Shown here: in pieces, positions 5,513 through 28,299 of the stretch | How the letters are laid out: every line of letters begins with the position of its first letter | Numbering within the stretch: position 1 is the stretch's first letter | IMG/VR virus record: IMGVR_UViG_3300017963_000425 | Location: 1 to 41,732 of that record | Length of the DNA stretch: 41,732 nt | Direction: 5' to 3' (one strand) | Source of the DNA: a virus | Translations under genes and position numbers: made by a program | The notes under the pieces: generated by a model | What the model was told of the DNA's origin: nothing | What the model saw: only the letters and a program-made list of their open reading frames with translations | The model's database searches: none

Positions 5513-6109
5513 CTAATGAACGCCCCAGTAAATTGCTTTTGTAGTTCCTACCTTGAAACCAGAAGCTGCCAATGCAAGTGCGTCAGGAAAATCGTCATGG
5601 CCTTTTTCACTATGATGGATCTTAAGATTGCCATGCTTGGTCTGACCATCCTTACTACCAACAACTTCATATCTTAAGTCTGCTAATTGATAGATAAGTT
5701 TTTGATGGTCAGGGATATGTAGTCCGCCAGGCTTGTTCCTTGCCCTCTTCTCAAGCAAAGCCCTTAGATTAGAATAAATGTCTTGCTTTAACTTAATGGT
5801 GAATGTTTTAGCGTCAACCTTTCCAGCAAGGGCAGAATCTTCCTGCAATACGTCAGCAACGCCTGCTCCGAGCCCTGTTTCATCTATAATAACTTTCTGG
5901 AACTTGAATCTGCTATTCAAGAAACGAATGCGGTTGATTGCGTCTGTAAGAAGCTTATGTCGTGTTTCTTCAATATATACCACATACAAATCATCATCAT
6001 CATAAGGTTGTTCTATGACTATGTAAACCGAACTATCTTCTCCAAGCCGAGCAAGGTCAACACCAAGAACATATCTCGCCTTAGGATGTATCTCACTAAT
6101 CGGTGGCAT
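5513..6109 (-). CDS. Large terminase, nuclease domain (separate ORF)
   Basis: 198 residues from ATG 6109. It is the RNase H-like headful or cos nuclease of a large terminase: GVDLARLGEDSS (first acid near residue 18), VIIDETGLGAGVADVL (second) and HHSEKGHDDFPDALALA (third) give the metal-binding acids. Normally this follows the ATPase domain in one chain. Here it has its own start, an AGAGG site upstream, and a TAATG junction with the 39-codon ORF before it. It is in the same reading frame as the ATPase ORF at 6221-7033, but at least five in-frame stops separate the two. It cuts concatemeric DNA during packaging. Confidence 0.83.
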   Translation of the reverse strand: MPPISEIHPKARYVLGVDLARLGEDSSVYIVIEQPYDDDDLYVVYIEETRHKLLTDAINRIRFLNSRFKFQKVIIDETGLGAGVADVLQEDSALAGKVDAKTFTIKLKQDIYSNLRALLEKRARNKPGGLHIPDHQKLIYQLADLRYEVVGSKDGQTKHGNLKIHHSEKGHDDFPDALALAASGFKVGTTKAIYWGVH

Positions 6110-6228
6110 TATTCGTCCTCTGGAAAACCAAAACAAAACTTTCTTAATGCTTGATCCCTATCTTTCTTTTCCTGGAACTCACCAATCAAAATACCTTCAA
6201 CATTCCGTATCTTATGTGCTTTATACAT
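6109..6228 (-). CDS. 39-residue ORF lying between the two terminase domains
   Basis: A frame from ATG 6228 to TAA 6109. It overlaps the stop of the ATPase gene by 8 bases and shares one base with the nuclease start (TAATG). The product is charged and contains RNVEGILIGEFQEKKDR and a KFCFGFPEDE ending. It has its own GGGAGG site 7 bases upstream, so it looks like a genuine gene rather than debris. I do not recognise it. It could bridge or regulate the two terminase parts. Its frame differs from that of both neighbours. Confidence 0.55.
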   Translation of the reverse strand: MYKAHKIRNVEGILIGEFQEKKDRDQALRKFCFGFPEDE

Positions 6229-7033
6229 AAACTGCCTCCCTCGGTATCATTGGATAATCATCAATACAAGCACTAATTAATTCTTGTGTGAAATAACAAT
6301 CAATGTCTTCAATGAACTCACCGAATATCTCTGTCCGAACATAAACATGATCCTTGCCATAATCATCTACTTCTTTCTGCACTTCTTCTTTGCTAATGTA
6401 AGGATTATCGAATGTTGTAAAGTGAAAGCTTTCGTAACCATCAACACCTTTCCTGCCACGCTGGAAGTCATTATAGAAATTATTTTTTCCCCAAGGAGTA
6501 GAAGTCTGCCATATTGGTGCACCCTTATCAAAGGCCATTGGTCGTATCGCTTGCAATGCAGTCTCTTTCAGGAAACCACTCTCATCCCAGAACATTCTAT
6601 CATATGCCTCGCCACGCAAGGAATCTGGATTATCGCCAGAACCGAACTCTACAGAACAACCATTGATCCATTCAATCCTTGGATGCGGATGTTCAGTAAA
6701 CTTCTTAAGATCATTCATTGCAGGAACTGGTGCATTCCTTAGAATTTCTAATATCTTGTTATATACTATCCTGCTCTGTTTGTATGTTGGTGCTACAACG
6801 AATTGTCGTGGATAGAACTTGAAGGTGGCACCCCTTATTATCTCTCCAGCAATCATGTGTGTCTTCCCAGTTCTTCTGCCACAACATATGACTTTATGCT
6901 TAGAAATAGACTTAAGAATGCCTTGTTGTTTCTTGTGCGGTTCAATGCCAAGATAACCTACTTGGAAAAGGACAGGATCTTTCAACTCTTTCTCGAACTG
7001 TTTCGCATCAATTTTATTTTTCTCAATCGCCAT
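6221..7033 (-). CDS. Large terminase, ATPase domain (separate ORF)
   Basis: 270 residues. Walker A is CGRRTGKT (residues 51-58), Walker B is RMFWDE (residues 146-151) and the coupling motif is TSTPWG (177-182), all typical of the DNA-packaging motor. The protein stops after the ATPase lobe at IPREAVYV, where other large terminases (usually 400-550 residues in one chain) run on into the nuclease domain; the nuclease is encoded next, at 5513-6109. A GTAGAAG context precedes ATG 7033, which overlaps the previous gene's stop. Together with the nuclease it should package DNA through the portal. Confidence 0.85.
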   Translation of the reverse strand: MAIEKNKIDAKQFEKELKDPVLFQVGYLGIEPHKKQQGILKSISKHKVICCGRRTGKTHMIAGEIIRGATFKFYPRQFVVAPTYKQSRIVYNKILEILRNAPVPAMNDLKKFTEHPHPRIEWINGCSVEFGSGDNPDSLRGEAYDRMFWDESGFLKETALQAIRPMAFDKGAPIWQTSTPWGKNNFYNDFQRGRKGVDGYESFHFTTFDNPYISKEEVQKEVDDYGKDHVYVRTEIFGEFIEDIDCYFTQELISACIDDYPMIPREAVYV

Positions 7034-7799: not shown

Positions 7800-8031
7800 C
7801 TTCAGCCTCCTTGAAATAAACTGCCCTTAGTGGCAAATACTCAGGACATTTCTGATTATAACCATCACATACATAACACCATTCCTGGCAATGTTCTTCT
7901 ATGTCTCTACCACCAGCAAGCATTGCTTGTAGTGCTGAGTAGTGAATGCATTTATCTAACCTTTCATCCAATCCGTCCGGAACTTCCATTTTTCTGGTCG
8001 GTGCACTGACAGTCAGAATCTGGTCTGACAT
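7792..8031 (-). CDS. 79-residue Cys-rich hypothetical protein
   Basis: Has a C-terminal cluster HCQEWCYVCDGYNQKCPEY (four Cys and one His), a probable metal site, after a mainly helical N-terminal part. The end overlaps the next start by 8 bases. The ribosome site for ATG 8031 is poor (AGGA almost touching the ATG), so a later Met at residue 15 is possible. It is the first gene after the structured region at 8040-8350. I do not recognise the family. Confidence 0.5.
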   Translation of the reverse strand: MSDQILTVSAPTRKMEVPDGLDERLDKCIHYSALQAMLAGGRDIEEHCQEWCYVCDGYNQKCPEYLPLRAVYFKEAEDV

Positions 8032-8185
8032 GTCCTAACCAAAGACTTGTCTGCAGACGCACCTTTGACCAAAAAGCAGAACGAAGCAGACATCAACACA
8101 CTAACATTGTTATGAGGTGACAACAATAATGGCACTCGCTCCGTTCTGCATTAATAGGGTTTAAAAAAGGTGTAAGAGCATAAAA

Positions 8186-8205
8186 GGAGGGGCGAAAGCC
8201 CCTCC
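8186..8205 (-). terminator. Stem-loop 1, 8-bp perfect stem
   Basis: Arms GGAGGGGC and GCCCCTCC around a four-base loop (GAAA on plus, TTTC on minus). On the minus strand it is followed by TTTTATGC and then, after an 11-base TTACACC-containing gap, a TTTTTT run, which resembles an intrinsic terminator. It is enclosed by the outer GGTGTAA/TTACACC stem. Confidence 0.5.
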
Positions 8206-8242
8206 CCAGATATATAATACATTACACCTCTTTCAGTATAAA

Positions 8243-8258
8243 GGAGGCCGAAGCCTCC
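8243..8258 (-). terminator. Stem-loop 2, cUUCGg tetraloop
   Basis: Arms GGAGGC and GCCTCC. Read on the minus strand the loop is TTCG closed by C-G, the exceptionally stable cUUCGg tetraloop, followed by TTTATACTG. The special loop appears only on the minus strand, which argues that the RNA of this strand is the functional one. Confidence 0.5.
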
Positions 8259-8315
8259 CTCGCCATTTATTTGCTCGGACACCTACATTACCAATTATAG
8301 GTGTGTGAGTATAAA

Positions 8316-8345
8316 GAGGGAAGGAGAAGCAACAAACCTTCCCTC
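8316..8345 (-). terminator. Stem-loop 3, 9-bp stem with 12-base loop
   Basis: Arms GAGGGAAGG and CCTTCCCTC around a 12-base loop; on the minus strand it is followed by TTTATACTC. It is the first of the three stem-loops met by transcription coming from the TerS-like gene, whose stop is 48 bases upstream. Confidence 0.5.
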
Positions 8346-8392
8346 GAATCTCGACCCATTTCAGAGATGAAAAACTCGTTCTATGACATTAA

Positions 8393-8806
8393 CTATACAT
8401 CTACAACTTCTTCATCCTTCTGCTTTTCCTTGAAAGCAGAAATCCTGTCAAGTATTTCAGTAGCAGTAACATTAATATTTATGTTTTCTTGTTTTATGTT
8501 TATCTTTTCACCGTGCTGTAATCTATGCCATTGTAGTAACGTCTGGCCTAATTGCGTCATCTGGTTCGCATTCTTACAATGTGCTTTTATCCCTTGTAAG
8601 TAAGTTCTGATATCTAACGCAGACGAGTTTGGATCTGTCATTATCTGATAAAGCTTCTTTGCACCTTCATTATCTAAACCCTTCTTTTTTAACTCTCGGA
8701 TTTGGGCTGCGAGCTTTTTTTTTGGACTAATGACCGCACCACCCTTTTTTCCCATCTCTCGAGCTCGTTTCGAGTTAATAGGGATTAAATTTTGCTCATT
8801 TGCCAT
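8393..8806 (-). CDS. Putative small terminase subunit
   Basis: 137 residues, mostly helical and basic. The N-terminus has SKRAREMGKKGG followed by Lys-rich helices, an arrangement often seen in small terminase-like DNA-binding proteins, then helices with SSALDIRTYLQGIKAH that could oligomerise. It precedes the terminase genes in the same direction, separated by the structured region and small genes, which supports a recognition subunit that marks viral DNA for packaging. A GGAAGG site precedes ATG 8806, which overlaps the stop of the radical SAM gene. No diagnostic residue exists for this family, so the call leans on context. Confidence 0.5.
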   Translation of the reverse strand: MANEQNLIPINSKRAREMGKKGGAVISPKKKLAAQIRELKKKGLDNEGAKKLYQIMTDPNSSALDIRTYLQGIKAHCKNANQMTQLGQTLLQWHRLQHGEKINIKQENININVTATEILDRISAFKEKQKDEEVVDV

Positions 8807-13686: not shown

Positions 13687-14775
13687 ATGGCAAATAAAGC
13701 AATGAAAAATATTAAAATAGGCATTGAGGTCGAATGTGTTATTAATGCCGATAAAGTGAGCGTGAATGCTGGTGCTTACCATAGCGGAGTGCGACAGCCA
13801 GGCTTACCTTTATGGAAGGTTGAGCGTGATGGCAGTCTGCGGAGCAATGGCGAGTTCGAGAATGCGAGGACTTGCGAGTTCGTGAGCAATGTTATTAGAA
13901 GCAAGAATGGCTATAATAAGGCCTTAAAAAAATTGCAGGAATTTCTGTCTGCTGGAGATAGCTACGACATGTGCGAAGTTGTTGCATTTAATAATAGTTG
14001 TGGTAGCCATGTGCATTTTTCCATTAAAGACTTTAACTTTAAGGAGAATGTTGTTTTTAAAAAGTATAGGGGCATTAGAAAACACTTTTTAAAGCGAATT
14101 GATAAATCTAAAGTTTTAAGCCAGGAAACAAAAGAAGCTATTAAAAAGCAATATGTCAGAAACTACGCTAAACGGTTGACAAGAGCGAGGATGGAAAGAA
14201 GCGTAAGGCATACCGAATTTAATTTCTCGAGTGAGGACATTGGCACAGGCCTTGAATGGCGAAGCATAAACTTAAACAATGTGCAAGACTGGGAAGAATT
14301 CCATGAAGTGTTCAAAATAATTTATGAATGCCTTGAATTTTTATACAAGCTTTCAACCAAATACACGAGCACATATAACCAGCGTATCCCTGACGTGCAT
14401 GGCGACAGGAACAATGGTTATGCATTAAAGTTTAAGGTTGCATACGACAAGAAGAAAGATGAAAGTATTGTTTTAACCTTGACAGCAACCGACAAACTGC
14501 GCAACATATTAAAGCGTGCAATAATCGAAGAAACGACAAGGTTCACAATATTGGGCAACAAAAAATATACCAGATATAAAGTAAAGCGTTCCAGGGTTGA
14601 CGGAGCGACTGGCGTTTATTTTTGGGAGATGTTGTTCGCCAAAAGATTGGTGGACAATGGCACCTTTGAAGTTGTGCTACCGAACACAGCATATATTAAT
14701 AGGATGATGGACAACCTAAAAACAGCAAGCAAAAGGTTAATCTATGCTGAATATATAGATAGCTTGGGTGACTAA
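13687..14775 (+). CDS. Amidoligase (glutamine-synthetase-like COOH-NH2 ligase)
   Basis: 362 residues. The pattern fits the amidoligase family of the glutamine-synthetase-like fold: GIEVECV near the start, EFVS around 64, CGSHVHFSI (105-113) with two His, and LEWRSIN near residue 197 for ATP/metal binding. These enzymes join a carboxylate to an amine using ATP; relatives in viruses and mobile elements have been predicted to modify peptides or cell-wall material. The next gene is a class II glutamine amidotransferase three bases away, a pairing known for this family, which would supply ammonia. Substrate unknown. Confidence 0.75.
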   Translation: MANKAMKNIKIGIEVECVINADKVSVNAGAYHSGVRQPGLPLWKVERDGSLRSNGEFENARTCEFVSNVIRSKNGYNKALKKLQEFLSAGDSYDMCEVVAFNNSCGSHVHFSIKDFNFKENVVFKKYRGIRKHFLKRIDKSKVLSQETKEAIKKQYVRNYAKRLTRARMERSVRHTEFNFSSEDIGTGLEWRSINLNNVQDWEEFHEVFKIIYECLEFLYKLSTKYTSTYNQRIPDVHGDRNNGYALKFKVAYDKKKDESIVLTLTATDKLRNILKRAIIEETTRFTILGNKKYTRYKVKRSRVDGATGVYFWEMLFAKRLVDNGTFEVVLPNTAYINRMMDNLKTASKRLIYAEYIDSLGD

Positions 14776-14777
14776 AA

Positions 14778-15599
14778 ATGTGCAACATAAACATTTTAAT
14801 TAAGGACAAAAAGGATAGCTGGAACGTCGCCAGTTTCATGATGGCAGTGACAGCTTCCAGCTATTCTCGTAACCCTGACGGAGAAGGGCTATTTTGTGAT
14901 AGCGACAGCAAGAGTTTGTTTATTAAACAGAACCAGAAGATTAACTTGCTAAATTATGGCAAATTGTTCAAGGATGGTAAGTTTATAATAACACACCAGC
15001 GACTCAGCACAAGCGGATTCAACCAAAGATGGCACCATCCTTTTGTGAATAAAGACTTTGTATTCGTGCATAATGGCATAATAAATCGTTTCCTTGGAAA
15101 GAAAGGTAGCGATTCATATGGTTTTTTTATGGCGTTCACTGCATTATTCAACAAATTGCAGACTGGCACAAGGGAAGAGCGTATTGTGCAGAGCATTAAG
15201 CACTTATTGGATGGTCTTGATGACGGCAGTTATAGCATTGCCATTTATGACAGAAGGACGGAGAAATTATACTATTGCAAGAACAGCATGACAAATATTC
15301 ACTTTTTTAGATTTGCCAGGAAGTTGTACATAACAACCCTGCATAGTAATTCAGAATTTATCCCAATGTTAAGCAAGCAACACACAGAACTTGACATTAA
15401 GGACTACACTATTTACAGAGCAAACAAGAAACAAGGGGAACCAGTTTCAGTTTATAGCATTGCTAACATAAAAGAACCAGAACCACCAAAGGAGACAGCA
15501 AAGGAAGAGACAACAAAGCAAAAAAAGAAGACCAAAGACGAAGTGCAATGCTATGACTATAACCCTTTCGAGAAATATTCGTGTCAAGAAACATATTAA
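14778..15599 (+). CDS. Class II glutamine amidotransferase
   Basis: 273 residues. The second residue is Cys (MCNIN), the N-terminal nucleophile once Met is removed. Further family residues are HQRLSTSG (Arg75), FVFVHNGII (Asn99-Gly100) and SDSYGF (Asp near 108). It hydrolyses glutamine to release ammonia, presumably for the amidoligase encoded immediately upstream. Residues 1-215 form the Ntn-hydrolase fold; the last 55 are a charged linker rich in Glu and Lys. There is no synthetase domain of its own, which supports partnership with the neighbour. The start is fixed by the need for Cys at position 2. Confidence 0.83.
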   Translation: MCNINILIKDKKDSWNVASFMMAVTASSYSRNPDGEGLFCDSDSKSLFIKQNQKINLLNYGKLFKDGKFIITHQRLSTSGFNQRWHHPFVNKDFVFVHNGIINRFLGKKGSDSYGFFMAFTALFNKLQTGTREERIVQSIKHLLDGLDDGSYSIAIYDRRTEKLYYCKNSMTNIHFFRFARKLYITTLHSNSEFIPMLSKQHTELDIKDYTIYRANKKQGEPVSVYSIANIKEPEPPKETAKEETTKQKKKTKDEVQCYDYNPFEKYSCQETY

Positions 15600-15625
15600 A
15601 ACATATTATTAGGAGGCAGATTAAA

Positions 15626-15793
15626 ATGGAAACTGACGAAAATTTCACTTGTGCGTTTTGCGGTTGCAAAGACTGTCCGCAATGGATGTATGGTGGCCAG
15701 TCGGAAGATGGCGAACCCATCTGCGACCATTGTGCAGACAAGACAAGAGAATATTACCGAGACGTGCAAGAACACCACAAGGAGGAGGACTAA
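15626..15793 (+). CDS. 55-residue zinc-finger protein
   Basis: Starts at ATG 15626 after AGGAGGCAG. Contains CAFCGCKDC near residue 9 and CDHC near residue 36, a probable zinc-binding knuckle, followed by an acidic and His-rich tail. An upstream in-frame Met lacks a ribosome site. No function can be assigned. Confidence 0.6.
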   Translation: METDENFTCAFCGCKDCPQWMYGGQSEDGEPICDHCADKTREYYRDVQEHHKEED

Positions 15794-15794
15794 A

Positions 15795-15986
15795 ATGAGA
15801 AAATTTATAGTATTGACGACTAATTGTCTTAATCAAGGAGAAGTTTATATCTCTGAAGTTATGGCAGAAAGTTTAGAAGATGCTTACGAAAGAGTTAATG
15901 ATGAAGGTTGCCACCAATATGACAACCATGCATTATTTACTTGTAAGCAATGGAACAAATTAAAAAAACAAATAAACAAAAAATAG
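15795..15986 (+). CDS. 63-residue hypothetical protein
   Basis: ATG 15795 follows an AGGAGGAGG site one base after the previous stop. The product begins with a beta strand (MRKFIVLTTNC) and continues with an EVMAESLEDAYERV helix and a basic tail. It resembles short one-domain alpha/beta phage proteins, but I do not recognise it. Confidence 0.6.
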   Translation: MRKFIVLTTNCLNQGEVYISEVMAESLEDAYERVNDEGCHQYDNHALFTCKQWNKLKKQINKK

Positions 15987-15999
15987 GAGGCGAATGTAA

Positions 16000-16209
16000 A
16001 TGGTAAGACTACAACTAACAAGGAAACAAGCAAAATATCTGGCGGAGGTAATGGGCAACTGCGTGATTGCGACTATTGAAGACTTAGAGCATCATGGCGA
16101 AGGAGAATCAACTTCAATGCTAAATTTAAAGGAAGCAAAGAACCTGTTGCAAAAATTAGAGAAATTGAAAGGGGCGCAGATAGGATTGCAAGCAACTGCG
16201 GAGGGATAA
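16000..16209 (+). CDS. 69-residue helical hypothetical protein
   Basis: Preceded by ATAGGAGGCGA. Two predicted helices (residues 5-28 and 43-57) with LTRKQAKYLAEVM at the start suggest a small helix-turn-helix-like or coiled-coil protein. No known family recognised. Two bases separate it from the next gene. Confidence 0.55.
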   Translation: MVRLQLTRKQAKYLAEVMGNCVIATIEDLEHHGEGESTSMLNLKEAKNLLQKLEKLKGAQIGLQATAEG

Positions 16210-16211
16210 AA

Positions 16212-16559
16212 ATGGCAAAAGATGACTTAGAGCTAAAAGACTTAAGACAATATTATGGCACGGAGAAGTATTATAAACTGCCAATTTGTAAGTCTGTCTA
16301 TACTGACGGAATCAAATACATTATGGAGAATGGTTATAGTTGGTTCGTCACTGATAGCTTAATAGTGGCAGAATCAAAGTATAAGGACGCAGAGTTCATA
16401 GTAATTAAATTAAAAGTGCGAGAAAGTGGCGCTTATGTAACTCTTGAAGATGGTAATGGCAAGATGCTCTACTATCAAGAATATGATTATACTGACGCAA
16501 AACGCGATTTAGTTCTTTACTGGACAGATGGCGTATTAATGCTTCAGGGAGAGTATTGA
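16212..16559 (+). CDS. DUF6876-like protein
   Basis: 115 residues. The pattern matches DUF6876, a small family of mobile-element proteins: LRQYYGTEKYYKLP at the N-terminus, YTDGIKYIMENGYSWFV, LEDGNGKMLYYQ and a YTDAKRDLVLYW ending with GVLMLQGEY. Proteins of this family are about this length and have no known biochemical function. It sits inside a run of micro-genes behind the amidoligase pair. Confidence 0.7.
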   Translation: MAKDDLELKDLRQYYGTEKYYKLPICKSVYTDGIKYIMENGYSWFVTDSLIVAESKYKDAEFIVIKLKVRESGAYVTLEDGNGKMLYYQEYDYTDAKRDLVLYWTDGVLMLQGEY

Positions 16560-16561
16560 AG

Positions 16562-16699
16562 ATGGATTTTGGAGATTCGGTTGATGAGCGTGATGCTTGG
16601 TATGAGTTTGTCGAGTTCATCTCTGGCACTCAGCCAGGCACAGAGAAGACTATAACATTTAAATGCGGAGAAGTTTACCGCATCCGGAGGGAAAAATGA
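16562..16699 (+). CDS. 45-residue hypothetical protein
   Basis: A frame from ATG 16562, two bases after the DUF6876 gene, with AGGGAGAG upstream. Acidic N-terminal half, basic C-terminus (YRIRREK). It overlaps the next start (ATGA). No family recognised; supported by ribosome site and coupling only. Confidence 0.45.
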   Translation: MDFGDSVDERDAWYEFVEFISGTQPGTEKTITFKCGEVYRIRREK

Positions 16700-16836
16700 C
16701 TTATGAGGGAGAGATGGCAATAGCAACTGAGTTAATGAATGTATCGAAGCAGTTGAACCAAATAAAATTTTTAATGAATGCAATTTGGCTCGAAACGAAG
16801 AAAGAACGGAGGCTCAATAAAGATGATAGAAAGTAA
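16696..16836 (+). CDS. 46-residue helical hypothetical protein
   Basis: ATG 16696 overlaps the previous stop and follows CGGAGG by about five bases. A single amphipathic helix (ELMNVSKQLNQIKF) and a basic tail suggest a small coiled-coil oligomer. Function unknown. Confidence 0.45.
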   Translation: MTYEGEMAIATELMNVSKQLNQIKFLMNAIWLETKKERRLNKDDRK

Positions 16837-17038
16837 AGGTATGACTACATATCGTGGTCTTCGGAATAATGCAAAGTTATGGAAAGCATTGTGTATTCGT
16901 TTAGTCAACCGTGACCTTACAAAAGAAGAATATTTGAACTGGTTGCAGTTGTGTGCGATACGAGTGCCTACTGACGCAGAGGTTGATGAACAAATAGACA
17001 AAGCGAACAGATTGCTCGATGCATCTGTGGAGGAATGA
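16823..17038 (+). CDS. 71-residue hypothetical protein
   Basis: Starts at ATG 16823, 11 bases after GGAGG and inside the preceding gene. Mostly helical, with LWKALCIRLVNRDLTKEEYL in the middle and an acidic C-terminus. No family recognised. A later Met (16841) is an alternative start. Confidence 0.5.
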   Translation: MIESKGMTTYRGLRNNAKLWKALCIRLVNRDLTKEEYLNWLQLCAIRVPTDAEVDEQIDKANRLLDASVEE

Positions 17039-17040
17039 AG

Positions 17041-17175
17041 ATGGCTTTTAGCAAAAAGAAGTTTGAAACAGAGATAGAGTTATTGCAAGATGAGAAGGAT
17101 AATATTATCCTTTTTGGTGTATTTGGCATGCTCTATAATTGGTACAGACGAAGGAAGCTTGAATATACTGCTTAA
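17041..17175 (+). CDS. 44-residue hypothetical protein
   Basis: ATG 17041 follows GGAGGAATGAAG. It has a charged N-terminal helix followed by a hydrophobic segment (NIILFGVFGMLYNWY) and a basic end, so it may touch the membrane. It ends 20 bases before the next gene's start. Confidence 0.45.
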   Translation: MAFSKKKFETEIELLQDEKDNIILFGVFGMLYNWYRRRKLEYTA

Positions 17176-17195
17176 TGTATCGATGGAGGTTGAAA

Positions 17196-17372
17196 ATGAC
17201 TGAAGAAAAGAAGCAAATCGTGGAGAAGGTCAATACTGACAGTATAGAATTGACCAAGAATAGCAAAGGTTTCAACTGGGTGATCAAAGCTTACGGTGAT
17301 GACCATCGTCAGATTGAGCGAAAGCTTAGACATTTAAAAGCTGTTGCTGAAGGTCTTGCTGGAACCGAATAA
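17196..17372 (+). CDS. 58-residue conserved-type small phage protein
   Basis: ATG 17196 lies after GGAGGTTGA. The product has the layout of a common small phage protein: an acidic start, NSKGFNWVIKAYGDD strand and an EIERKL-type helix. It is the last gene before the terminator at 17389-17451. Function unknown. Confidence 0.55.
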   Translation: MTEEKKQIVEKVNTDSIELTKNSKGFNWVIKAYGDDHRQIERKLRHLKAVAEGLAGTE

Positions 17373-17388
17373 TGTTTCCTCAGGCGAA

Positions 17389-17451
17389 GGCAAGAGGCCA
17401 ATTGCACAAAGGGTTTCATTTCCCTTTACTCCTACCTCTTGCCTTTTTTTT
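17389..17451 (+). terminator. Terminator with nested hairpins and T8 run
   Basis: Outer arms GGCAAGAGG (17389-17397) and CCTCTTGCC (17435-17443) enclose an inner hairpin AAAGGG/CCCTTT (17408-17427) and are followed by eight T. It ends the amidoligase and micro-gene operon. Confidence 0.8.
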
Positions 17452-17463
17452 ATTTTAGAAATA

Positions 17464-17475
17464 TTTATATATAAC
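17464..17475 (+). promoter_or_regulatory. TATA promoter for the second rightward operon
   Basis: TTTATATATAAC after an A-rich BRE-like GAAATA, about 13 bases beyond the terminator T-run. A start near 17493 would give a very short leader before ATG 17497. Confidence 0.6.
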
Positions 17476-17477
17476 TT

Positions 17478-17487
17478 AGTATATACT
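17478..17487. promoter_or_regulatory. AGTATATACT palindrome, copy 3 (operator position)
   Basis: The palindrome lies between the TATA box and the predicted start, an ideal repressor site. The word AGTATATACTGG also occurs, on the minus strand, at copy 1. Confidence 0.5.
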
Positions 17488-17496
17488 GGTGGAAAG

Positions 17497-17688
17497 ATGG
17501 TGAAAAGAGAGTGGAAAAAGAAAGCTTTGATCTTATCTCATATTAGAAGTATTGAAACATTGATAAAGGACGCTCCTAAACAATATTGGGGAGAATTTCC
17601 TAATAGTTTCAAAGAAGACATTTATAGGATGCGAGAAATACTTCTTGATTTAGAGAAAAGAGTTGATTGTTTGGAGGCAAAATTTTAA
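17497..17688 (+). CDS. 63-residue charged helical protein
   Basis: ATG 17497 follows GGTGGAAAG. Basic N-terminus (MVKREWKKK) and two long helices ending in LDLEKRVDCLEAKF. First gene after the promoter. No family recognised. Like the next gene it starts MVKRE, so the two may be related by duplication of the start. Confidence 0.5.
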   Translation: MVKREWKKKALILSHIRSIETLIKDAPKQYWGEFPNSFKEDIYRMREILLDLEKRVDCLEAKF

Positions 17689-17689
17689 G

Positions 17690-17977
17690 ATGGTAAAACG
17701 AGAACTTTCTAAAGAAGAAAAAGAGCGGTGCGAAAGACAACTCGAACGGCTTGATGGAGATAAAGAATATGAAGAATTTGCGGAAGAGTATGCAAGATTA
17801 ATGCTTGACAAAGGTCTTGAGCAAAACTATAAGAAACAAAGACGAGATTTTCAGGATAAACTGAAACTTGCAAAAGATAATCTTAAGCAAATCACAGCGA
17901 CGCAAGAGTTTGTGCGAGACCAGCTTGAGAATGGTGTTGAGGAAATTAAAGAAGACAAAGAAAATAAGGAGGATTAA
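17690..17977 (+). CDS. 95-residue coiled-coil protein
   Basis: Almost entirely Glu/Lys/Arg helix (KEEKERCERQLERLDG, then KLKLAKDNLKQI) with an acidic tail. It begins one base after the previous stop. Likely a coiled coil that forms oligomers. No enzymatic motif, no membrane segment, and no recognised family. Confidence 0.55.
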   Translation: MVKRELSKEEKERCERQLERLDGDKEYEEFAEEYARLMLDKGLEQNYKKQRRDFQDKLKLAKDNLKQITATQEFVRDQLENGVEEIKEDKENKED

Positions 17978-17979
17978 AG

Positions 17980-18441
17980 ATGGTAGATGTAAACATATTT
18001 CGTGAGCAGAACGCTGACGAGAAGAAAGAATTCCAGCCGATTGGCAAGAAAACTTTCCAGGACGTTGCACGACAACATTTGATTTCTATTGAGAAAGAAC
18101 AAGTAAAGAAACACTTACCTTTTTGTTATCGTTGTGCGAAGATGGATCTTCAGGATCTAATTGATAAGAAAATGATTGAGACGGTGCGTAGCGAGAGCAA
18201 GCTTGTGGAGACAAGTCCGAAGATTGAGCTCGAGAAGATAGATTTCGTCCAGAAGTATGGTGAGAAAAATTTTGAGATGTTAGGTTCTTCTGAAGTTATT
18301 GAAAAAAAGTTACTTGACGGCATCAGGGCTCCAGTCAAGACTGGTTATCAGTATGAGTATAAATGCAAGAAGAGAGGTTGTTGGTGTAGCGTTTTCGTTC
18401 CTCTTTCTGAGCACGAGAAGAGGCAGAAGAAGAAGGGCTAA
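17980..18441 (+). CDS. 153-residue zinc-binding hypothetical protein
   Basis: CYRC near residue 49 and CKKRGCWC near residue 129 could bind one or two zinc ions across a long helical insertion. An AGGAGG site precedes ATG 17980. The FVPLSEHEKRQKKKG tail is basic. I do not recognise the fold; a DNA- or RNA-binding regulator is possible because the next gene is an AbrB-like protein. Confidence 0.55.
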   Translation: MVDVNIFREQNADEKKEFQPIGKKTFQDVARQHLISIEKEQVKKHLPFCYRCAKMDLQDLIDKKMIETVRSESKLVETSPKIELEKIDFVQKYGEKNFEMLGSSEVIEKKLLDGIRAPVKTGYQYEYKCKKRGCWCSVFVPLSEHEKRQKKKG

Positions 18442-18443
18442 AG

Positions 18444-18602
18444 ATGGCTGAAGAAAGATACCATAAAGTTAGAGAAATTGTCAAGAAGAAAACGTCAGTA
18501 GTCTATGGTATCACGATTCCTAAACATATAGCTGAAGATTTTTTAGGTTTAGATATGAAGATAGTTCGTAGCGGTAGTTGTATAGTGTTAGAAAGTATTT
18601 AG
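18444..18602 (+). CDS. AbrB/SpoVT-like DNA-binding protein
   Basis: 52 residues from ATG 18444. The pattern KKKTSVVYGITIPKHIAEDF, then a Gly-Leu turn and SGSCIVLES matches the swapped-hairpin AbrB domain, widespread in archaea as a small dimeric transcription regulator. It lies directly before the glycosyltransferase operon and could control it or the AGTATATACT palindromes. It is too short for routine gene callers but has a clean start two bases after the previous stop. Confidence 0.6.
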   Translation: MAEERYHKVREIVKKKTSVVYGITIPKHIAEDFLGLDMKIVRSGSCIVLESI

Positions 18603-18626
18603 TATCAAAACAAGAGGTGATTTAAG

Positions 18627-19874
18627 ATAGTAGAACAAAAACATATATACTGGCTTAGTGACAGTCCATTCTCAAACACAGGATTCAGCACAGTTTCTCT
18701 GAACGTGCTGAACGGACTTGATAAACGTGGTTGGAAATGTAGTTTCCAGTCGCACAATTATATCGGCCAGACCTTGCCGAAGGGAAGTGTAAGATTGGCG
18801 GATGGAACACCATTCAATTTCGACCTGTATGGTCACGGAAGAGAACAATACGCAAGAGACCTTCTTCAGCCACGAGTTCGAGAACTAAGACCGCAAATCT
18901 TCGGCGTTCTTCTTGATACTTTCATGTTATATCCTTGGTATCTGCAACAAAATTATGCGCCAGCGAAAACTATGTTTTATTTTCCAAGTGATGGTGGTGC
19001 ATGTCTTCCGCAAGGGTGCGAAGCGATACTACAGAAGTGCGACCTACCGATAGCAATGTCTAAGTTCGGCCAGAAACAAGTCAAGGAAATACACGGAATC
19101 AATGCAGAGTATATTCCGCATGCAGTAGATCCAAAGATATACTATCCTTTAGAACCGGAAGAAAAACAAAAATTGAAAGCAAAATTAGGCTTGTCCAACA
19201 AATTCGTGATCGGGGTTATGGGCAGAAATCAAGGCAGAAAGATGCATGATAGAATCTTTAAGATGTTTGCCAAGTTCGCTAAAATGCACCAAGACGTTAT
19301 TCTTTTCTGCCACTTTGACCCCAACGATTTGGCTGCGGTCTTTGATGTGAAACGCTTGATGCAAAGATTGAACGTGGCAAACAGAGTTGTCTTCTCTGGT
19401 GTGAACTACTTTCGTGGCTTCACTTACGAACAAATGAACGAAGTCTATAATGTGATGGATGTTTATCTATCAACAACAAGCGGAGAAGGTTTCGGTATCG
19501 GCACGATTGAAGCAATGGCTTGCAAGATTCCTGTCATCAATATCGCATACACTACTACTGAAGAATTAGTCATTGCCAATAATGCAGGAGAAAGCATCAA
19601 GCTTGTAGGTTGCGAAGAGATGTCATTATTGTCAACACCGAGCCAAGAGTTCGATTACAAGATGATGAACGGAACTATCACTGGCAGTTGGTGTGTTGAG
19701 CGCGGCATCTGCGACCTTGACGATGGTGTCAAAAAGCTCGAGAAGTTATATCAAGACGCAAAGTTAAGGGAAGATTACGGCAGGAACGGCAGACGTGCAG
19801 TGCTAAGAGACTATACTTGGGACGTTGTGAATGACGAGTTCGACAGACTGCTCACAAGATTGGTGAAATCATGA
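18627..19874 (+). CDS. GT-B glycosyltransferase (GT4-like), apparent AUA start
   Basis: About 415 residues if started at ATA 18627. The conserved N-terminal segment HIYWLSDSPFSNTGFS is read in frame upstream of the first GTG (18705), and GAGGTGA lies six bases before ATA, so translation seems to start there. The C-terminal half has the nucleotide-sugar site: MGRNQGRK, YLSTTSGEGFGIGTIEAMAC and a YTWDVV helix. It is a retaining-type GT-B enzyme that would add a sugar to a glycan or lipid acceptor. First gene of the glycan island. The sugar cannot be predicted. Confidence 0.8.
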   Translation: MVEQKHIYWLSDSPFSNTGFSTVSLNVLNGLDKRGWKCSFQSHNYIGQTLPKGSVRLADGTPFNFDLYGHGREQYARDLLQPRVRELRPQIFGVLLDTFMLYPWYLQQNYAPAKTMFYFPSDGGACLPQGCEAILQKCDLPIAMSKFGQKQVKEIHGINAEYIPHAVDPKIYYPLEPEEKQKLKAKLGLSNKFVIGVMGRNQGRKMHDRIFKMFAKFAKMHQDVILFCHFDPNDLAAVFDVKRLMQRLNVANRVVFSGVNYFRGFTYEQMNEVYNVMDVYLSTTSGEGFGIGTIEAMACKIPVINIAYTTTEELVIANNAGESIKLVGCEEMSLLSTPSQEFDYKMMNGTITGSWCVERGICDLDDGVKKLEKLYQDAKLREDYGRNGRRAVLRDYTWDVVNDEFDRLLTRLVKS

Positions 19875-20053
19875 AAGCAAAATATTTTATTAAAAAAGAA
19901 TATGCTGTTAATATACAAAAAGGAGATATTATTGAAGTTTCATTAGTGGAACATGATAAGTATGGTATTGATAGGCATATTTTTGTTGAAGGAGAAGTCA
20001 GTTGTATCCGCAGAGATCCAAAAGGAGAGTTCGCAGTAGTTTACATAAAATGA
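19871..20053 (+). CDS. 60-residue beta-rich hypothetical protein
   Basis: ATG 19871 overlaps the glycosyltransferase stop (ATGA). The sequence looks like an all-beta SH3 or OB-like small domain (IQKGDIIEVSLVEHDKYG, GEFAVVYIK). It has no enzymatic motif. It is coupled to the B12-binding gene downstream, again by ATGA. Confidence 0.55.
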   Translation: MKAKYFIKKEYAVNIQKGDIIEVSLVEHDKYGIDRHIFVEGEVSCIRRDPKGEFAVVYIK

Positions 20054-20445
20054 AGCGTGTTTATTTGATAAGTCCCAGCGAACAAGGTTTGCTTGCGAAT
20101 GCTGGTGACAGACCACCATTAGGAATATTATACATTGCTTCGTATCTTCGAGAAAATGGCGTCTCTGTTCGTGTCGCTGATATGAACCATATGAAGATTT
20201 CGGAGTTAGCTGATGAACTGATGCACTACTATCCGACCTATATTGGTATCAGTTTCAGCACTCCATTATACGAACGAGCAGTCCAGTTATTACGTTTTTG
20301 TCGTGCGTTTGTGCCGAGAGCAAAGTTTGTCGCAGGAGGTCCGCACCCTTCCGCTTCGCCAGAAAGTTGCGATGAGTTTGATTATGTAATTGTGGGGGAA
20401 GGAGAAGAAGCAATGTTGGAGTTAGTTACAGATGAAAGTTATTAA
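20050..20445 (+). CDS. B12-binding domain protein of a radical SAM pair
   Basis: 131 residues forming the Rossmann-like cobalamin-binding domain that normally begins B12-dependent radical SAM enzymes: RPPLGILYIASYLRENG, YPTYIGISFSTP, VAGGPHPSASPE and DYVIVGEGEEAMLELV. Lacking the DxHxxG His, as is usual for this class, it would bind B12 base-off without a His ligand. The chain stops where the radical SAM domain should follow; that domain is the next, overlapping gene. It would assemble with it or be joined by frameshifting. Such enzymes methylate or rearrange unactivated carbons. Confidence 0.75.
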   Translation: MKRVYLISPSEQGLLANAGDRPPLGILYIASYLRENGVSVRVADMNHMKISELADELMHYYPTYIGISFSTPLYERAVQLLRFCRAFVPRAKFVAGGPHPSASPESCDEFDYVIVGEGEEAMLELVTDESY

Positions 20446-21268
20446 AGCGAAACTGATAGAGAATATTAACGAACTTCCGTTGCCAGCGAGAGATTTGCTC
20501 GACATGAAGAATTATAATTTGATGCAAGATGGAAAACGAACCGCAACGCTCATCACGAGTAGAGGATGCACAGGCGTTTGTGCGTATTGCTCTCGAAAAT
20601 CACTTGGCAACAAATTCAGAGCTAACACACCTCGCAAAGTCATTCAAGAAATCAAGAGGCTTATGGAATATGGTTATGAAAGTTTTTACTTTCTTGACGA
20701 CATGTTCACTTACGATAATGAAAGGGCTGAAGAGATTGCAGACCTTATTATCAAAGAAGGGTTGAATATCACTTTCAGGATCACAACCAGAGCAGACACA
20801 GTAGATTATGACTTGCTCAAGAAGTTGAAATCTGCAGGTCTTGTAATGTTGAGCATAGGTATCGAACACGCAGACAACGAAGTTTTAAAAAAGTCACTCA
20901 AGAATATGACAATCGAACAGAACGAACAGGTCATAGATTGGTGCAACGAACTTTGCATTGAAGTGAAAGGTTTCTTCATCCTGAACTTGCCAGGCGCAAC
21001 AGAAAAAACCATCTGCAAGACTTTAGATTTTGCGAAACGAAAAGGTCTTAAATATGCAGACTTTTATATGCTGACTGCGTTTCCTGGCAGTAGTTTGTGG
21101 AATTTCCCTGACAAGTTCGGTATGAGATTGCTTGATGATAATTTTCATTTTTTCCAGGCATGGATGGGCAAGTATCCGCAGATCAATATTGATAGCAAAG
21201 AACTGCCAAAGGAAAAGATTATAAAGTTATGGGGAGAGGTAATGCAAGAATGGAACAAGAAAAAATAA
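20432..21268 (+). CDS. Radical SAM domain of a B12-type enzyme (separate ORF)
   Basis: 278 residues. SRGCTGVCAYCSR holds CX3CX2C (Cys 46, 50 and 53) for the [4Fe-4S] cluster, followed by the TIM-barrel segments ESFYFLDDMFTYD, FRITTRAD, MLSIGIEHAD and FFILNLPGATE. The N-terminal ELPLPARDLLD is the linker usually found just after a B12 domain. It overlaps the B12 gene by 14 bases in another frame, with GGAG 10 bases before ATG 20432. It probably methylates a glycan, lipid or peptide; a natural split and a frameshift are both possible. Confidence 0.82.
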   Translation: MKVIKAKLIENINELPLPARDLLDMKNYNLMQDGKRTATLITSRGCTGVCAYCSRKSLGNKFRANTPRKVIQEIKRLMEYGYESFYFLDDMFTYDNERAEEIADLIIKEGLNITFRITTRADTVDYDLLKKLKSAGLVMLSIGIEHADNEVLKKSLKNMTIEQNEQVIDWCNELCIEVKGFFILNLPGATEKTICKTLDFAKRKGLKYADFYMLTAFPGSSLWNFPDKFGMRLLDDNFHFFQAWMGKYPQINIDSKELPKEKIIKLWGEVMQEWNKKK

Positions 21269-21477
21269 AAAAATATATAAGAATTATTGAAGATATGGAA
21301 AGTGAACTATATTTATTAGAATGGACATTAAACAGAACTCCTGAAGAAGAAATAAAATTTGTAAAATTATTACAAGAATTTAGGGATATATATGGAATAA
21401 ATTATGGTCAAGTAGTAAAACCTTCGGATATTTTAAGAATTGTAGGTGCGTTTTTAACATGGTTGGAAAAAAATTAA
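21250..21477 (+). CDS. 75-residue helical hypothetical protein
   Basis: ATG 21250 lies inside the end of the radical SAM gene after GAGAGG. Long acidic helix (IIEDMESELYLLEWTL) followed by KFVKLLQEFRDIYG and a hydrophobic C-terminus overlapping the next start. AT-rich codon use differs visibly from the flanking enzyme genes. No function can be assigned. Confidence 0.55.
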   Translation: MEQEKIKKYIRIIEDMESELYLLEWTLNRTPEEEIKFVKLLQEFRDIYGINYGQVVKPSDILRIVGAFLTWLEKN

Positions 21478-22745
21478 TCATTGCATTGATAGGGCAGGAC
21501 GTGGAGAACGTCATCCGTCTCTGCTTAGATAGTATTAAATCTGTAGCGGACTATATAGTCTTTGTTGATGGTGGCAGTAAAGATGATACAATGTATATCC
21601 TTCAGCAAGAATATCCGCAAGTTCATATTATAGAACAAAGATACGAGCATGAGAATAAAGGGGCGAACGGAAAAGCGAGGAATGTCTATCTTGAATATGT
21701 GAAGAAACATTTCGATGGCGAATGGTGTCTTGTCTTGGATCCTGACGAATGCGTTGACCAGCCAGACATCCTGCGTAAGTTCTTAGATGATATTGAGAAA
21801 AGAGAAGATATAAAAGGAAGACAATTGATGTTCAATCCGAGAATGGAACACTTCATTTATTCATTAAGATATATTGATGCTACACAAGAGAAACATTTCT
21901 GTCCGTGCCGATTATTCACTATACACAACCATCTCTATTATGAAGAAGTCGAACATCCTGTTCTTCATTCTCACATTCCTATTCTAAACGTCAATCTTGA
22001 AGGTTTCACTATCTTTCATTTTGCGTATGCGAAAGCAATGTTCGAACTTAAGAAGAAGTATCTCAACCATCTCGAGAAATCTAACATACACGAACCAGAG
22101 TTCTTAGACTGGTGGTATCATGCACATCTGCTTGGCGAGTATCCAATAAAGGCAGTAAATATTGATGCTCTGCCGAAAGTCATCAAAGAACATTTCATAA
22201 TCAACGACGACTACCTCTATTTCAGAAACAGAGGTATGATTGAAGAAAAGCATTGGATGGATGCTCACCATTGGAATAAATTTTTCCAGCCAAAGAAAGC
22301 ACTCGTCTGTGGTTGTGGGATGGGACAACGAGTTTATACATTAAGAGCAATGGGTGTGCAAGCGTTCGGTTTCGATATTAACAAGTATGCGATAGAAAGA
22401 ACTAACTGCAAGGATATTGACAAGTATATTAAGGTTGATGACATTACCAAGATTGAACATTTCCAGGATGATCATTTCGACCTTGTTGTATGCTATGACG
22501 TTCTTGAACATTTAGATCCTGATAGCTTATCTATAGCTCTTGAGAAAATCTATAAAGTTGGGAAGGAAAACTTTTTGTTTTCTATCCCCTTTATAGGCGA
22601 TCCTAACCTTGACGCAGATCCTACTCATAAGATAAAACAAACAAAACAATGGTGGATAGAACAGATACAGAAGGCAGGTTTCCAGTTAAGATTGCCACCG
22701 AAGCATTTCTTATACAAACACCAAATAATATTAGCGAAAAAATGA
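21459..22745 (+). CDS. GT-A glycosyltransferase fused to SAM methyltransferase
   Basis: 428 residues. Residues 1-230 are a family-2 glycosyltransferase: DYIVFVDGGSKDDTM and the metal-binding DPDECVDQPD motif. Residues 275-428 are a class I methyltransferase: CGCGMGQRVYTL (SAM loop), GFDINKYAIERT, and FDLVVCYDVLEHLDP, then SIPF. One polypeptide could thus add a sugar and methylate the same or a neighbouring sugar, typical of surface glycan capping. It overlaps the preceding small gene by 19 bases. The acceptor is unknown. Confidence 0.83.
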   Translation: MVGKKLIIALIGQDVENVIRLCLDSIKSVADYIVFVDGGSKDDTMYILQQEYPQVHIIEQRYEHENKGANGKARNVYLEYVKKHFDGEWCLVLDPDECVDQPDILRKFLDDIEKREDIKGRQLMFNPRMEHFIYSLRYIDATQEKHFCPCRLFTIHNHLYYEEVEHPVLHSHIPILNVNLEGFTIFHFAYAKAMFELKKKYLNHLEKSNIHEPEFLDWWYHAHLLGEYPIKAVNIDALPKVIKEHFIINDDYLYFRNRGMIEEKHWMDAHHWNKFFQPKKALVCGCGMGQRVYTLRAMGVQAFGFDINKYAIERTNCKDIDKYIKVDDITKIEHFQDDHFDLVVCYDVLEHLDPDSLSIALEKIYKVGKENFLFSIPFIGDPNLDADPTHKIKQTKQWWIEQIQKAGFQLRLPPKHFLYKHQIILAKK

Positions 22746-22891
22746 TAAAAAAAATAGCGAGGGAAGTTGAAGAATGGGCAGGAACATTATTATTAGTAGT
22801 TTTTGCATTACTTGTAATTGTAATATTTTTTCCAGTTGCATTCTTCATGCAGAAAAATGATATTAGGAGAACAACAAATCGGAAGGCCTGA
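22742..22891 (+). CDS. 49-residue single-pass membrane peptide
   Basis: ATG 22742 overlaps the previous stop (ATGA). A short charged N-terminus precedes one transmembrane helix (residues about 14-34, LLLVVFALLVIVIFF) and a basic tail. It may anchor the glycan enzymes at the membrane. It overlaps the start of the next glycosyltransferase by 35 bases. Confidence 0.5.
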   Translation: MIKKIAREVEEWAGTLLLVVFALLVIVIFFPVAFFMQKNDIRRTTNRKA

Positions 22892-23519
22892 AAAGTTTAA
22901 AGTGGCAATCTTAGTTCCAACAGTGCCAGGGAACGAAAATACATTGATGGATTGTCTTTGTCATATCATAACCAATAGTAAAAATTATGATTATGAGATC
23001 ATAGTTTATAAGAATAATTTTGAAGGATATACTCCTGCGATAAATAAATTAATAACACAAGCTTTTTCAATACCTGATATACAAGCTGTCTTCATGCTGA
23101 ACGATGACATCAATATCCAAGACGAAGAGTGGCTCAGTAAGTTTATAGAAGCAATAAAAGAAAATACAGGAGTTGTCTGTCCGTTATCTCATTGGAGAAA
23201 TGAACATTGTAGTATGGGTTTTTGTCTAATGCCTCGTCCAGTTCTTGAACAAATGAAAGCAGAAGAAGGCAACTATTTCGATGAAAGGTTTAAGATATTG
23301 AACTGGGATGATGTGGATATGAGTGTTCGTCTGCAAGAAGCTGGTTATGAACTTGTAAAGATTAATGACCATAATAAACCAAATAAACCAATGTTTCATC
23401 ACAAAGGTAGTCTCTCCACTAAAATGTACACTCCTGCGATGGTGGAAGAGATGAAACAAAATAAATTTAGGTTCAAAGAAAAATGGAAAGGTACTCGTTG
23501 GGAGAAAAAATGGAACTGA
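22857..23519 (+). CDS. GT-A glycosyltransferase (family 2)
   Basis: About 220 residues. FKVAILVPTVPGNEN is the usual first strand; VFMLNDDINIQDEEW contains the DxD-like metal site; NWDDVDMSVRLQEAGYELV is the conserved acidic and ED/WDD region. An HHKGSLS segment closes the site. The enzyme would transfer a sugar from a nucleotide sugar with inversion. The exact start is uncertain because no strong ribosome site is seen; a GTG near residue 16 is possible. Confidence 0.78.
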   Translation: MILGEQQIGRPEKFKVAILVPTVPGNENTLMDCLCHIITNSKNYDYEIIVYKNNFEGYTPAINKLITQAFSIPDIQAVFMLNDDINIQDEEWLSKFIEAIKENTGVVCPLSHWRNEHCSMGFCLMPRPVLEQMKAEEGNYFDERFKILNWDDVDMSVRLQEAGYELVKINDHNKPNKPMFHHKGSLSTKMYTPAMVEEMKQNKFRFKEKWKGTRWEKKWN

Positions 23520-24310
23520 AAGAATTATTTGCAAAGCATAAAGATAAGACATTTATCGTAGTCACACCTAATAAAGGGAACTGGGGCGATGAACTTATCC
23601 GGCAAGGTGCGAAAAAGTTATTGCGAGAACTTAATATTAAATATGAAGAATGGAGCCGTAGTGGTTTCGAGTTTGATCGTGGTGAAGATATAATTTTCTA
23701 TATACATGGTGTTGGTGGTTTTGGTCGCACATATCCTAATGTATTGAGCAAGGCAAAAGCAATCCGTAAGCATTATCCTAATAATCTTATAATCTATGGT
23801 CCTTCTACTGCAATGGTAGGAGAAGAACATCTCAAGCAAATGAAAGATGAAATGATAACTGATGATAAATTCATTCTTTTTGCAAGAGAAAGGACAACAT
23901 TCAATTACCTACGTCATAACTTTCCTGACCTTAACCTATACTTGGATGTTTGTCCTTCTCTTCATTTAATGAAAGAAGACCTTATCTCAAAAAATATTTC
24001 GCAAGACGAAATCAAGATACTTACTGCAATAATGGCGAGGGAAGATACTTTCGAGAAGCCAGAAACTGAACCTTCTCAGTTTTCTATCGCTGGATCTATG
24101 CGTTTTGATCCTGTAGATGCACGAGATTTCGCTGAGTTCATTAATTATCATTTATATTCAGGAATAATATATACTAATCGTTGTCATTCTGCAATCTTAG
24201 GAATGATATTAAATAAACCAGTATATATGTCTAATAATAATTATCATAAAAATAAATCTGTATGGGAGTATTGTCTTAAAGATAGAGGCGTGCAATGGAT
24301 AGGAAATTAA
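23510..24310 (+). CDS. Polysaccharide pyruvyl transferase-like protein
   Basis: 266 residues. It has the family layout: TPNKGNWGDELIRQGA at the N-terminus, a GVGGFGR turn, IIYGPST, ARERTT, and the C-terminal TNRCHSAILGMILNKPVYM with the catalytic-region His. Such enzymes attach pyruvate ketals to sugars or use PEP-related donors on surface polymers. A GGGAG site five bases before ATG 23510 supports the start. The gene overlaps the previous glycosyltransferase by 10 bases and the next methyltransferase by 16. Pyruvylation itself is inferred. Confidence 0.75.
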   Translation: MELKELFAKHKDKTFIVVTPNKGNWGDELIRQGAKKLLRELNIKYEEWSRSGFEFDRGEDIIFYIHGVGGFGRTYPNVLSKAKAIRKHYPNNLIIYGPSTAMVGEEHLKQMKDEMITDDKFILFARERTTFNYLRHNFPDLNLYLDVCPSLHLMKEDLISKNISQDEIKILTAIMAREDTFEKPETEPSQFSIAGSMRFDPVDARDFAEFINYHLYSGIIYTNRCHSAILGMILNKPVYMSNNNYHKNKSVWEYCLKDRGVQWIGN

Positions 24311-24768
24311 ATCTTGGGAGCGGTTTTCGGCCACGAAAACAAAATGAAGGCTGGATCAATATAGATATTGAAGAAGAATGTATGCCTGACATTGTGCGTG
24401 ATGTAAGGAAAGGTCTGCCTTTTGATGATAATAGTGTTGACTATGTTTATGCTTCGCACTTTATGGAACATTTTGAATGGGAAGATTTCATCTTCTTGAT
24501 GAGTGAGATATGGCGAGTATTGAAACCAGAAGCAACCTTCGAGATGATAATTCCTCACTATAAGCATGAGAATGCATTTGACATTGACCATAAGATAGTT
24601 ATCACGCCAAGAACTTTTCGAGTTTTCCAGCGAGGCTTGAAAGCTACAAGTTCATATAAACATTTCAACAATAATAAAGTTTACTTCAAAAAAGCAGAGA
24701 TATTTGATGATTTCGATGGAACGAGGGGCGAACCGCAACTATACTGCAAGTTCAAAGCAGACAAATAA
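24295..24768 (+). CDS. Class I SAM-dependent methyltransferase
   Basis: 157 residues, a compact single-domain enzyme. Motif I is LNLGSGFRPRKQ, motif II lies in GWINIDIEEE, and DYVYASHFMEHFEW and EIWRVLKPEATFEMIIPH are the later motifs, typical of small glycan or lipid methyltransferases located in polysaccharide gene clusters. It is short because it lacks a lid domain. It lies between the pyruvyl transferase-like gene and the SPASM enzyme. The target is unknown. Confidence 0.82.
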   Translation: MDRKLNLGSGFRPRKQNEGWINIDIEEECMPDIVRDVRKGLPFDDNSVDYVYASHFMEHFEWEDFIFLMSEIWRVLKPEATFEMIIPHYKHENAFDIDHKIVITPRTFRVFQRGLKATSSYKHFNNNKVYFKKAEIFDDFDGTRGEPQLYCKFKADK

Positions 24769-24770
24769 AA

Positions 24771-25808: not shown

Positions 25809-26001
25809 GGGAACTTTAGAAGAAATTAGAACAAAGTATGTAATTATAGAAACGAACGAAAAGAAGATAATCTTAATTCCTTTGGATAGCATTTGTTCTA
25901 TGGAATTATTAGATTTTGAAAATACTACTTGGGTGAAAACACAAGATAAAAATCTTGACGAAAACATAGAAGATACAAAAGTAAAGGTGATTGTAAGATG
26001 A
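25780..26001 (+). CDS. 73-residue beta-rich protein, possibly Sm-like
   Basis: ATG 25780 follows GAGAGGTG inside the end of the SPASM gene and the stop overlaps the next start (ATGA). YEGTLEEIRTKYVIIET, followed by KIILIPLDSICSMELLDF, resembles the strand order of an Sm/LSm or Hfq-type barrel, but this is weak. It could equally be a small adaptor. No catalytic motif. Confidence 0.5.
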   Translation: MTDSDKTFYEGTLEEIRTKYVIIETNEKKIILIPLDSICSMELLDFENTTWVKTQDKNLDENIEDTKVKVIVR

Positions 26002-28225: not shown

Positions 28226-28230
28226 AAGAA

Positions 28231-28291
28231 AAACAATCTCAGGCCAACCTAATATTGGGGGTATTGGGTAGAAATAAACCCAAGATTGTTT
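28231..28291. terminator. Bidirectional terminator at the convergent junction
   Basis: Outer arms AAACAATCT (28231-28239) and AGATTGTTT (28283-28291) enclose a second hairpin TTGGGT/ACCCAA. A-rich and T-rich flanks on both sides allow use by the rightward glycan operon and the leftward tail and lysis operon. Confidence 0.75.
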
Positions 28292-28299
28292 TGTGAAAA

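Follow-up and report, generated by a model that had tools for sequence, protein, structure and literature searches.

A row of four hairpins behind the TerS gene of an uncultivated, probably archaeal virus: a candidate 3'-end element

In headful and cohesive-end phages the pac or cos site lies next to the gene for the small terminase subunit (TerS) and carries short repeated boxes. For archaea, a review describes intrinsic termination as not requiring a hairpin and a U-tract as a usual stop signal (PMC7289017), and a study of Haloferax volcanii gives 503 termination sites with hairpins upstream, of which one was tested and showed 59% termination (PMC7237163). The sequence analysed is the uncultivated virus record IMGVR_UViG_3300017963_000425 (41,732 bases, 'the window' below), in which a strongly structured region follows TerS. 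With about even confidence we read this region as a cis-acting element at the 3' end of the minus-strand TerS transcript, working as a terminator or as a processing array; this is the most economical reading, and it is followed in order by a discrete RNA, a functionless insertion and a packaging site. Nothing resembling the array was found for an archaeal virus in the literature searched, which does not imply its absence from print.

The TerS–TerL junction

Genes in the window lie on the minus strand from 13320 down to 1, on the plus strand at 13687–28225 and on the minus strand again past 28.7 kb. Locus L004 is nearly identical to the window and links its end (41732) to its start (1), the 58 bases that the window lacks at this junction being L004 1045–1102, within a repeat-rich gene; the map therefore behaves as circular or permuted. 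On the plus strand, a cluster of glycosyltransferase, methyltransferase, radical-SAM and polysaccharide pyruvyl transferase genes (18705–28225) probably serves sugar modification, and two segments within ORFs (25531–25650 and 13771–13890) have unusually strong folds for their GC content (−47.4 kcal/mol each). At the convergent operon junction, 28230–28294 holds a long hairpin with A/T-rich arms (AAAACAATCT/AGATTGTTTT) that looks like a two-way terminator. The first minus-strand row contains the following.

Upstream part, minus strand: 574-aa protein, small ORFs, ParB-like protein, radical-SAM protein (Pfam PF04055), then TerS
8806–8393, minus strand: TerS, 137 aa, assigned by homology and synteny
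Downstream part, minus strand: the structured region, three small ORFs, TerL as two ORFs, portal
8031–7792, minus strand: first ORF downstream of the region, Cys-rich, a putative protein from translation
7799–7419, minus strand: second small ORF
7265–7023, minus strand: third small ORF
7033–6221, minus strand: ATPase part of TerL (PHROG match)
6136–5513, minus strand: nuclease part of TerL (PHROG match)
After the portal, minus strand: protease- or head-like protein, then major capsid protein

The product of 8806–8393 matched no family in Pfam or PHROGs, and it is taken as TerS because in L117 (43% identity) and L071 (32%) its homologs run into the beginning of a TerL ORF that is intact, and an ORF with the same KGG-type start likewise overlaps TerL in L107; a further homolog (32% identity) is present in G009. 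The preliminary description had set the region between TerS-like and terminase genes. It was right about TerS, but TerL does not adjoin: the three small ORFs intervene, and TerL begins about 1 kb beyond the region (TerS–TerL gap 1.36 kb). The 7804–8031 part of the first small ORF had no Pfam match, and the second is built of about seven diverged KEANKDKIKA-like repeats.

The TerS–TerL junction seems often to take up inserts. By eye, HNH-type ORFs stand between TerS and TerL in L013 (2604–2855) and L043 (3653–4457). TerL of the window (5513–7033) is split at the ATPase/nuclease boundary by some 147 inserted nt that contain a 39-aa ORF, and two-ORF TerLs with the same domain boundary were seen in L042 (9393–10881), L055 (1516–3425), L047 (2117–3514) and L107 (1077–2380), most other relatives checked having a single TerL ORF. 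The split is about 140 nt in L042 and holds in L055 a 185-aa ORF that is HNH endonuclease-like by eye; the ORFs abut in L047 and overlap by ATGA in L107. G009, which also has a split TerL, has, between TerS and TerL, some 390 nt in which no ORF is listed (L042 4326–4716). Parts of this stretch are tRNA-like by eye, ARAGORN and Rfam found nothing in it, and the 391 nt were rejected as a homologous structured region on account of an ordinary fold (z −0.65).

Structure of the hairpin array

That 8040–8350 is free of ORFs and contains inverted repeats had already been claimed. Both statements are borne out: many stops occur in all three minus-strand frames, the sole listed ORF (at least 80 aa) touching the region being plus-strand 8301–8603, antisense through TerS, and the repeats are real. 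These are three GC stems (9 bp at 8316–8345, 6 bp at 8243–8258 and 8 bp at 8186–8205), an outer stem (8164–8175/8222–8233), an ACACCT/AGGTGT stem (8279–8304), a nested hairpin (arms at 8073–8087/8138–8152) and a palindrome. The predicted elements are as follows.

8345–8162, minus strand: core array of four hairpins with linkers of 0–4 nt and a U6 end
8345–8316, minus strand: hairpin A, 9-bp GC-rich stem, 12-nt loop, tail TTTATACTC
8315–8266, minus strand: hairpin 2, the tail of hairpin A paired with its own inverted copy (arms TTTATACTC..ACACCT / AGGTGT..GAG..ATAAA)
8261–8240, minus strand: hairpin B, 9-bp stem including a G-U pair, cUUCGg loop, tail TTTATACTG
8235–8162, minus strand: nested hairpin around C, outer stem AAAGAGGTGTAA/TTACACCTTTTTT with the GC hairpin C inside
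8207–8184, minus strand: hairpin C, 10-bp stem including a G-U pair, tail TTTTATGCT
8168–8163, minus strand: U6 run after the outer stem, end of the array
8149–8076, minus strand: second nested hairpin, 12-bp stem GCAGAACGGAGC/GCTTCGTTCTGC with one G-U pair
8040–8067, no strand: imperfect palindrome centred on GTCTGCAGAC, ordinary as RNA

The minus-strand fold of 8030–8392 reaches −132.8 kcal/mol (−95.1 kcal/mol in shuffles; z −6.46, 0/100) and the plus-strand fold −108.1 kcal/mol (z −6.10, 0/100 shuffles); as the two are similar in z, the fold does not fix the strand. The row of hairpins and the nested hairpin account for the excess structure and the palindrome does not, z being −7.51 for 8160–8262 (minus strand), −3.6 for 8065–8160, −2.24 for 8260–8315, −1.67 for 8310–8392 and −0.10 for the palindrome segment 8030–8072. 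In a folding scan of the record the most extreme 120-nt minus-strand stretch was that at 8161. Counting stems of at least 6 bp with at least 4 GC pairs, the 363 bases hold three GC hairpins (500 shuffles averaged 0.146 and never exceeded 2), and hairpins A and C alone have a perfect GC-rich stem of at least 8 bp in the entire window. GC content is 43% in the region and 33–37% in the adjoining sequence.

Tails of similar sequence had been noticed behind the three GC stems, and these are exact at 8315–8307, 8242–8234 and 8185–8177; the TTTATRCT motif occurs 13 times in the window (both strands), three of them within the array. A cUUCGg loop on the minus strand only, also claimed earlier, is indeed found in hairpin B, but hairpin C has cGAAAg on the plus strand only, and choice of strand by tetraloops was rejected as each strand has one stable loop. 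The stems of A, B and C are unlike in sequence and each is fully paired; if the units are duplicates, their stems would have changed in a compensatory way, which with three units is suggestive only. A switch through an alternative stem (8168–8185/8267–8284) was rejected, being 13.7 kcal/mol worse.

Relatives, host and look-alikes

Searches of viral contigs gave 37 loci with the capsid protein (54–100% identity) and 119 with TerL, 80 of the latter being retained. A capsid relative with 56% identity sits in a metagenome-assembled genome (MAG) named Candidatus Pacearchaeota, in a locus that is mostly a viral structural module, so that a binning error is possible. PCNA_N was found in three of 15 records from relatives (the window is not one of them) and in four of 14 control genomes, all four archaea; an ERCC4 nuclease domain is present in G005. 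MCM was found in 0/15 relatives' records and is uninformative since the family also matches bacteria. Judged by its relatives (MAG, PCNA), the virus probably infects archaea.

Copies of the array were sought by DNA search in phages, plasmids, viral contigs (with a 27-mer and a degenerate pattern of hairpin plus tail) and, from the order to which the MAG belongs, 200 genomes; apart from short matches they were recovered in L001 and L003 only. The degenerate pattern gave two matches at chance level (one within an ORF of L136, the other behind a capsid-like gene in L137). At E≤0.01 the region had matches of 24–34 bases in three of those 200 genomes, which were taken as chance, and a word-7 search against the relatives' loci gave matches of chance length only. 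No perfect GC-rich hairpin of at least 8 bp occurs among loci L004–L083; the 1,083,486 bases of all loci except L001–L003, some of which overlap one another, contain 15, the first in L088. Among the sequences searched, then, only this virus and the contig identical to it carry the array. A lack of conserved stems in relatives had been named beforehand as a refutation, and the array is absent from the relatives examined; this argues against a family-wide function and does not decide among the readings. CTGCAG as an operator core was rejected, 8 of 163 sites in relatives lying outside ORFs with no enrichment.

Parts of the array do have look-alikes in phages. Hairpin B with its tail matched 202 of 50,697 phage records (E≤1); among the 60 matches listed, 49 lie in no feature, three touch a gene and eight are in unannotated records. 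Thirteen were opened, picked for diversity and not at random and including two pairs from related phages, and each of the 13 coincides with the 3' end of a gene on its own strand, between 6 nt inside the gene and 33 nt past its stop; in Pseudomonas phage ventosus the match also falls within the following gene's annotated start. Hairpin C matched 23 phage records, and 12/12 opened were at gene 3' ends, five on the query strand (all including tail letters) and seven on the opposite strand (mainly stem). By contrast, hairpin A gave two weak phage records and the nested hairpin 8070–8155 five. Hairpins B and C therefore look like bacterial phage terminators and hairpin A does not, so that of the triple minus-strand terminator proposed in the preliminary description B and C have gained independent support and A has not.

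Under a single rule for hairpin terminators (stem 6, 4 GC pairs, T-tail, at most 60 nt from the stop) none was found at 579 gene ends of relatives, 45 of the window or 341 of the Pacearchaeota MAG (400 kb); the same rule gave 3 of 11 in four phage stretches picked for holding such a hairpin.

Readings of the region and comparison with known systems

Several observations favour a 3'-end element: structure far beyond that of shuffles, a position directly after the TerS stop (8393) and before same-strand genes, the look-alikes of B and C at phage gene 3' ends and, in the Haloferax volcanii study, hairpins upstream of termination sites (PMC7237163). The array also has the GC-rich stem-loops of an intrinsic terminator (stems of 9, 6 and 8 bp). 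The reading is weakened by the T-tails, with only 3–4 consecutive T after the A, B and C stems and no entry here in a terminator scan of the window, by the seven of 12 hairpin C look-alikes on the opposite strand and the want of any for A, by the probably archaeal host with 0/579 and 0/341 hairpin-terminated gene ends, by distances from the TerS stop on the same strand (A 47 nt, B 132 nt, C 186 nt) that for B and C exceed those in the phages opened, and by plus- and minus-strand folds that are about equally unusual. If the reading holds, RNA polymerase leaving TerS would transcribe the four hairpins (8345–8162) ending in U6, and the GC-rich hairpins with their short U-containing tails would slow or release it or block 3'-to-5' trimming. 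The array would then be where most replication-gene and TerS transcripts end, and the packaging and structural genes (from 8031) would be expressed separately, by read-through or from a promoter of their own at about 8165–8040.

A stable viral RNA was another option of the preliminary description. It is rather unlikely that minus-strand 8345–8162 instead specifies such an RNA as a discrete molecule of about 184 nt, with a 5' end made near 8345 by processing or initiation and a 3' end at U6, which would act in trans or bind a viral or host protein. Such an RNA would account for the compact fold, in which unpaired linkers are nearly absent and 126 of 184 nt pair (−79.9 kcal/mol, helix probabilities mostly 0.9–0.99 and 0.58 for the A-U end helix), and its U6 end would be a usual archaeal stop signal according to the review (PMC7289017). 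Against it, Rfam gave no match at gathering thresholds and nothing credible at permissive ones (the best sub-threshold matches lie far below), the searched relatives, phages, plasmids and genomes hold no copy and promoter evidence is absent in front. tRNA searches with and without introns gave nothing credible, seven ARAGORN mitochondrial-mode matches being dismissed as spurious.

We consider it quite improbable that the array arose recently at the junction, by insertion or duplication of palindromic units, and is itself functionless. The raised GC content, the diverged repeats and inverted arms of the units, the HNH-type ORFs at this junction in L013 and L043 and the separation of TerS and TerL here as against their overlap in L117, L071 and L107 are in its favour; however, a second copy turned up neither in the window nor in the loci fetched and collections searched, no transposase was seen, and stems that differ among units yet still pair suggest selection. 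Least probable of all, a pac or cos site whose repeated AGGTGT/ACACCT boxes TerS would bind, with the cut made nearby, fits the position beside TerS and the two AGGTGT and two ACACCT boxes in about 140 bases, but this earlier suggestion gained no support, as L117, L071 and L107 have a homologous TerS and no such region before TerL, the identical contig L001 passes through unbroken, L004 bridges the window ends with no end at the array, and the boxes are mostly hairpin arms.

That an archaeal tailed virus carries here a compact, virus-specific 184-nt four-hairpin RNA, which either confers bacterial-type hairpin termination on archaeal RNA polymerase as a switch ahead of the structural genes or is a stable viral RNA of a new kind, is in our judgement unlikely. 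If transcription does stop here in an archaeal host, the array would be a natural test of how archaeal RNA polymerase responds to bacterial-type hairpins, a point on which the review holds hairpins unnecessary (PMC7289017) and the Haloferax study gives a partly positive answer (PMC7237163). It would also show how poorly known viruses, probably of Pacearchaeota-like archaea, separate replication from structural gene expression; an ordinary row of terminators would have little significance.

Compared with pac and cos sites, the array shares adjacency to TerS and short repeated boxes, and differs in its RNA-like structure, its absence from relatives with a homologous TerS and in showing no genome end. 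In the Rho-independent terminators of Serratia phage phiMAM1, Dickeya phage JA13 and Shewanella phage Thanatos-1 the stem, the cUUCGg loop and the first T letters are nearly identical to those of hairpin B and lie, as here, on the strand of the upstream gene; hairpin C is similar. Unlike these terminators, the array has a series of three GC hairpins interrupted by a fourth hairpin, weak T-tails, a position far from the stop codon (33 nt at most for B in phages) and a probably archaeal virus as its bearer. GC-rich hairpins of this kind are unseen at gene ends of the relatives or the Pacearchaeota MAG, and what the array has in common with archaeal T-run terminators and the structure-assisted ends reported for Haloferax volcanii is the U6 after a hairpin at 8168–8163 (PMC7237163, PMC7289017).
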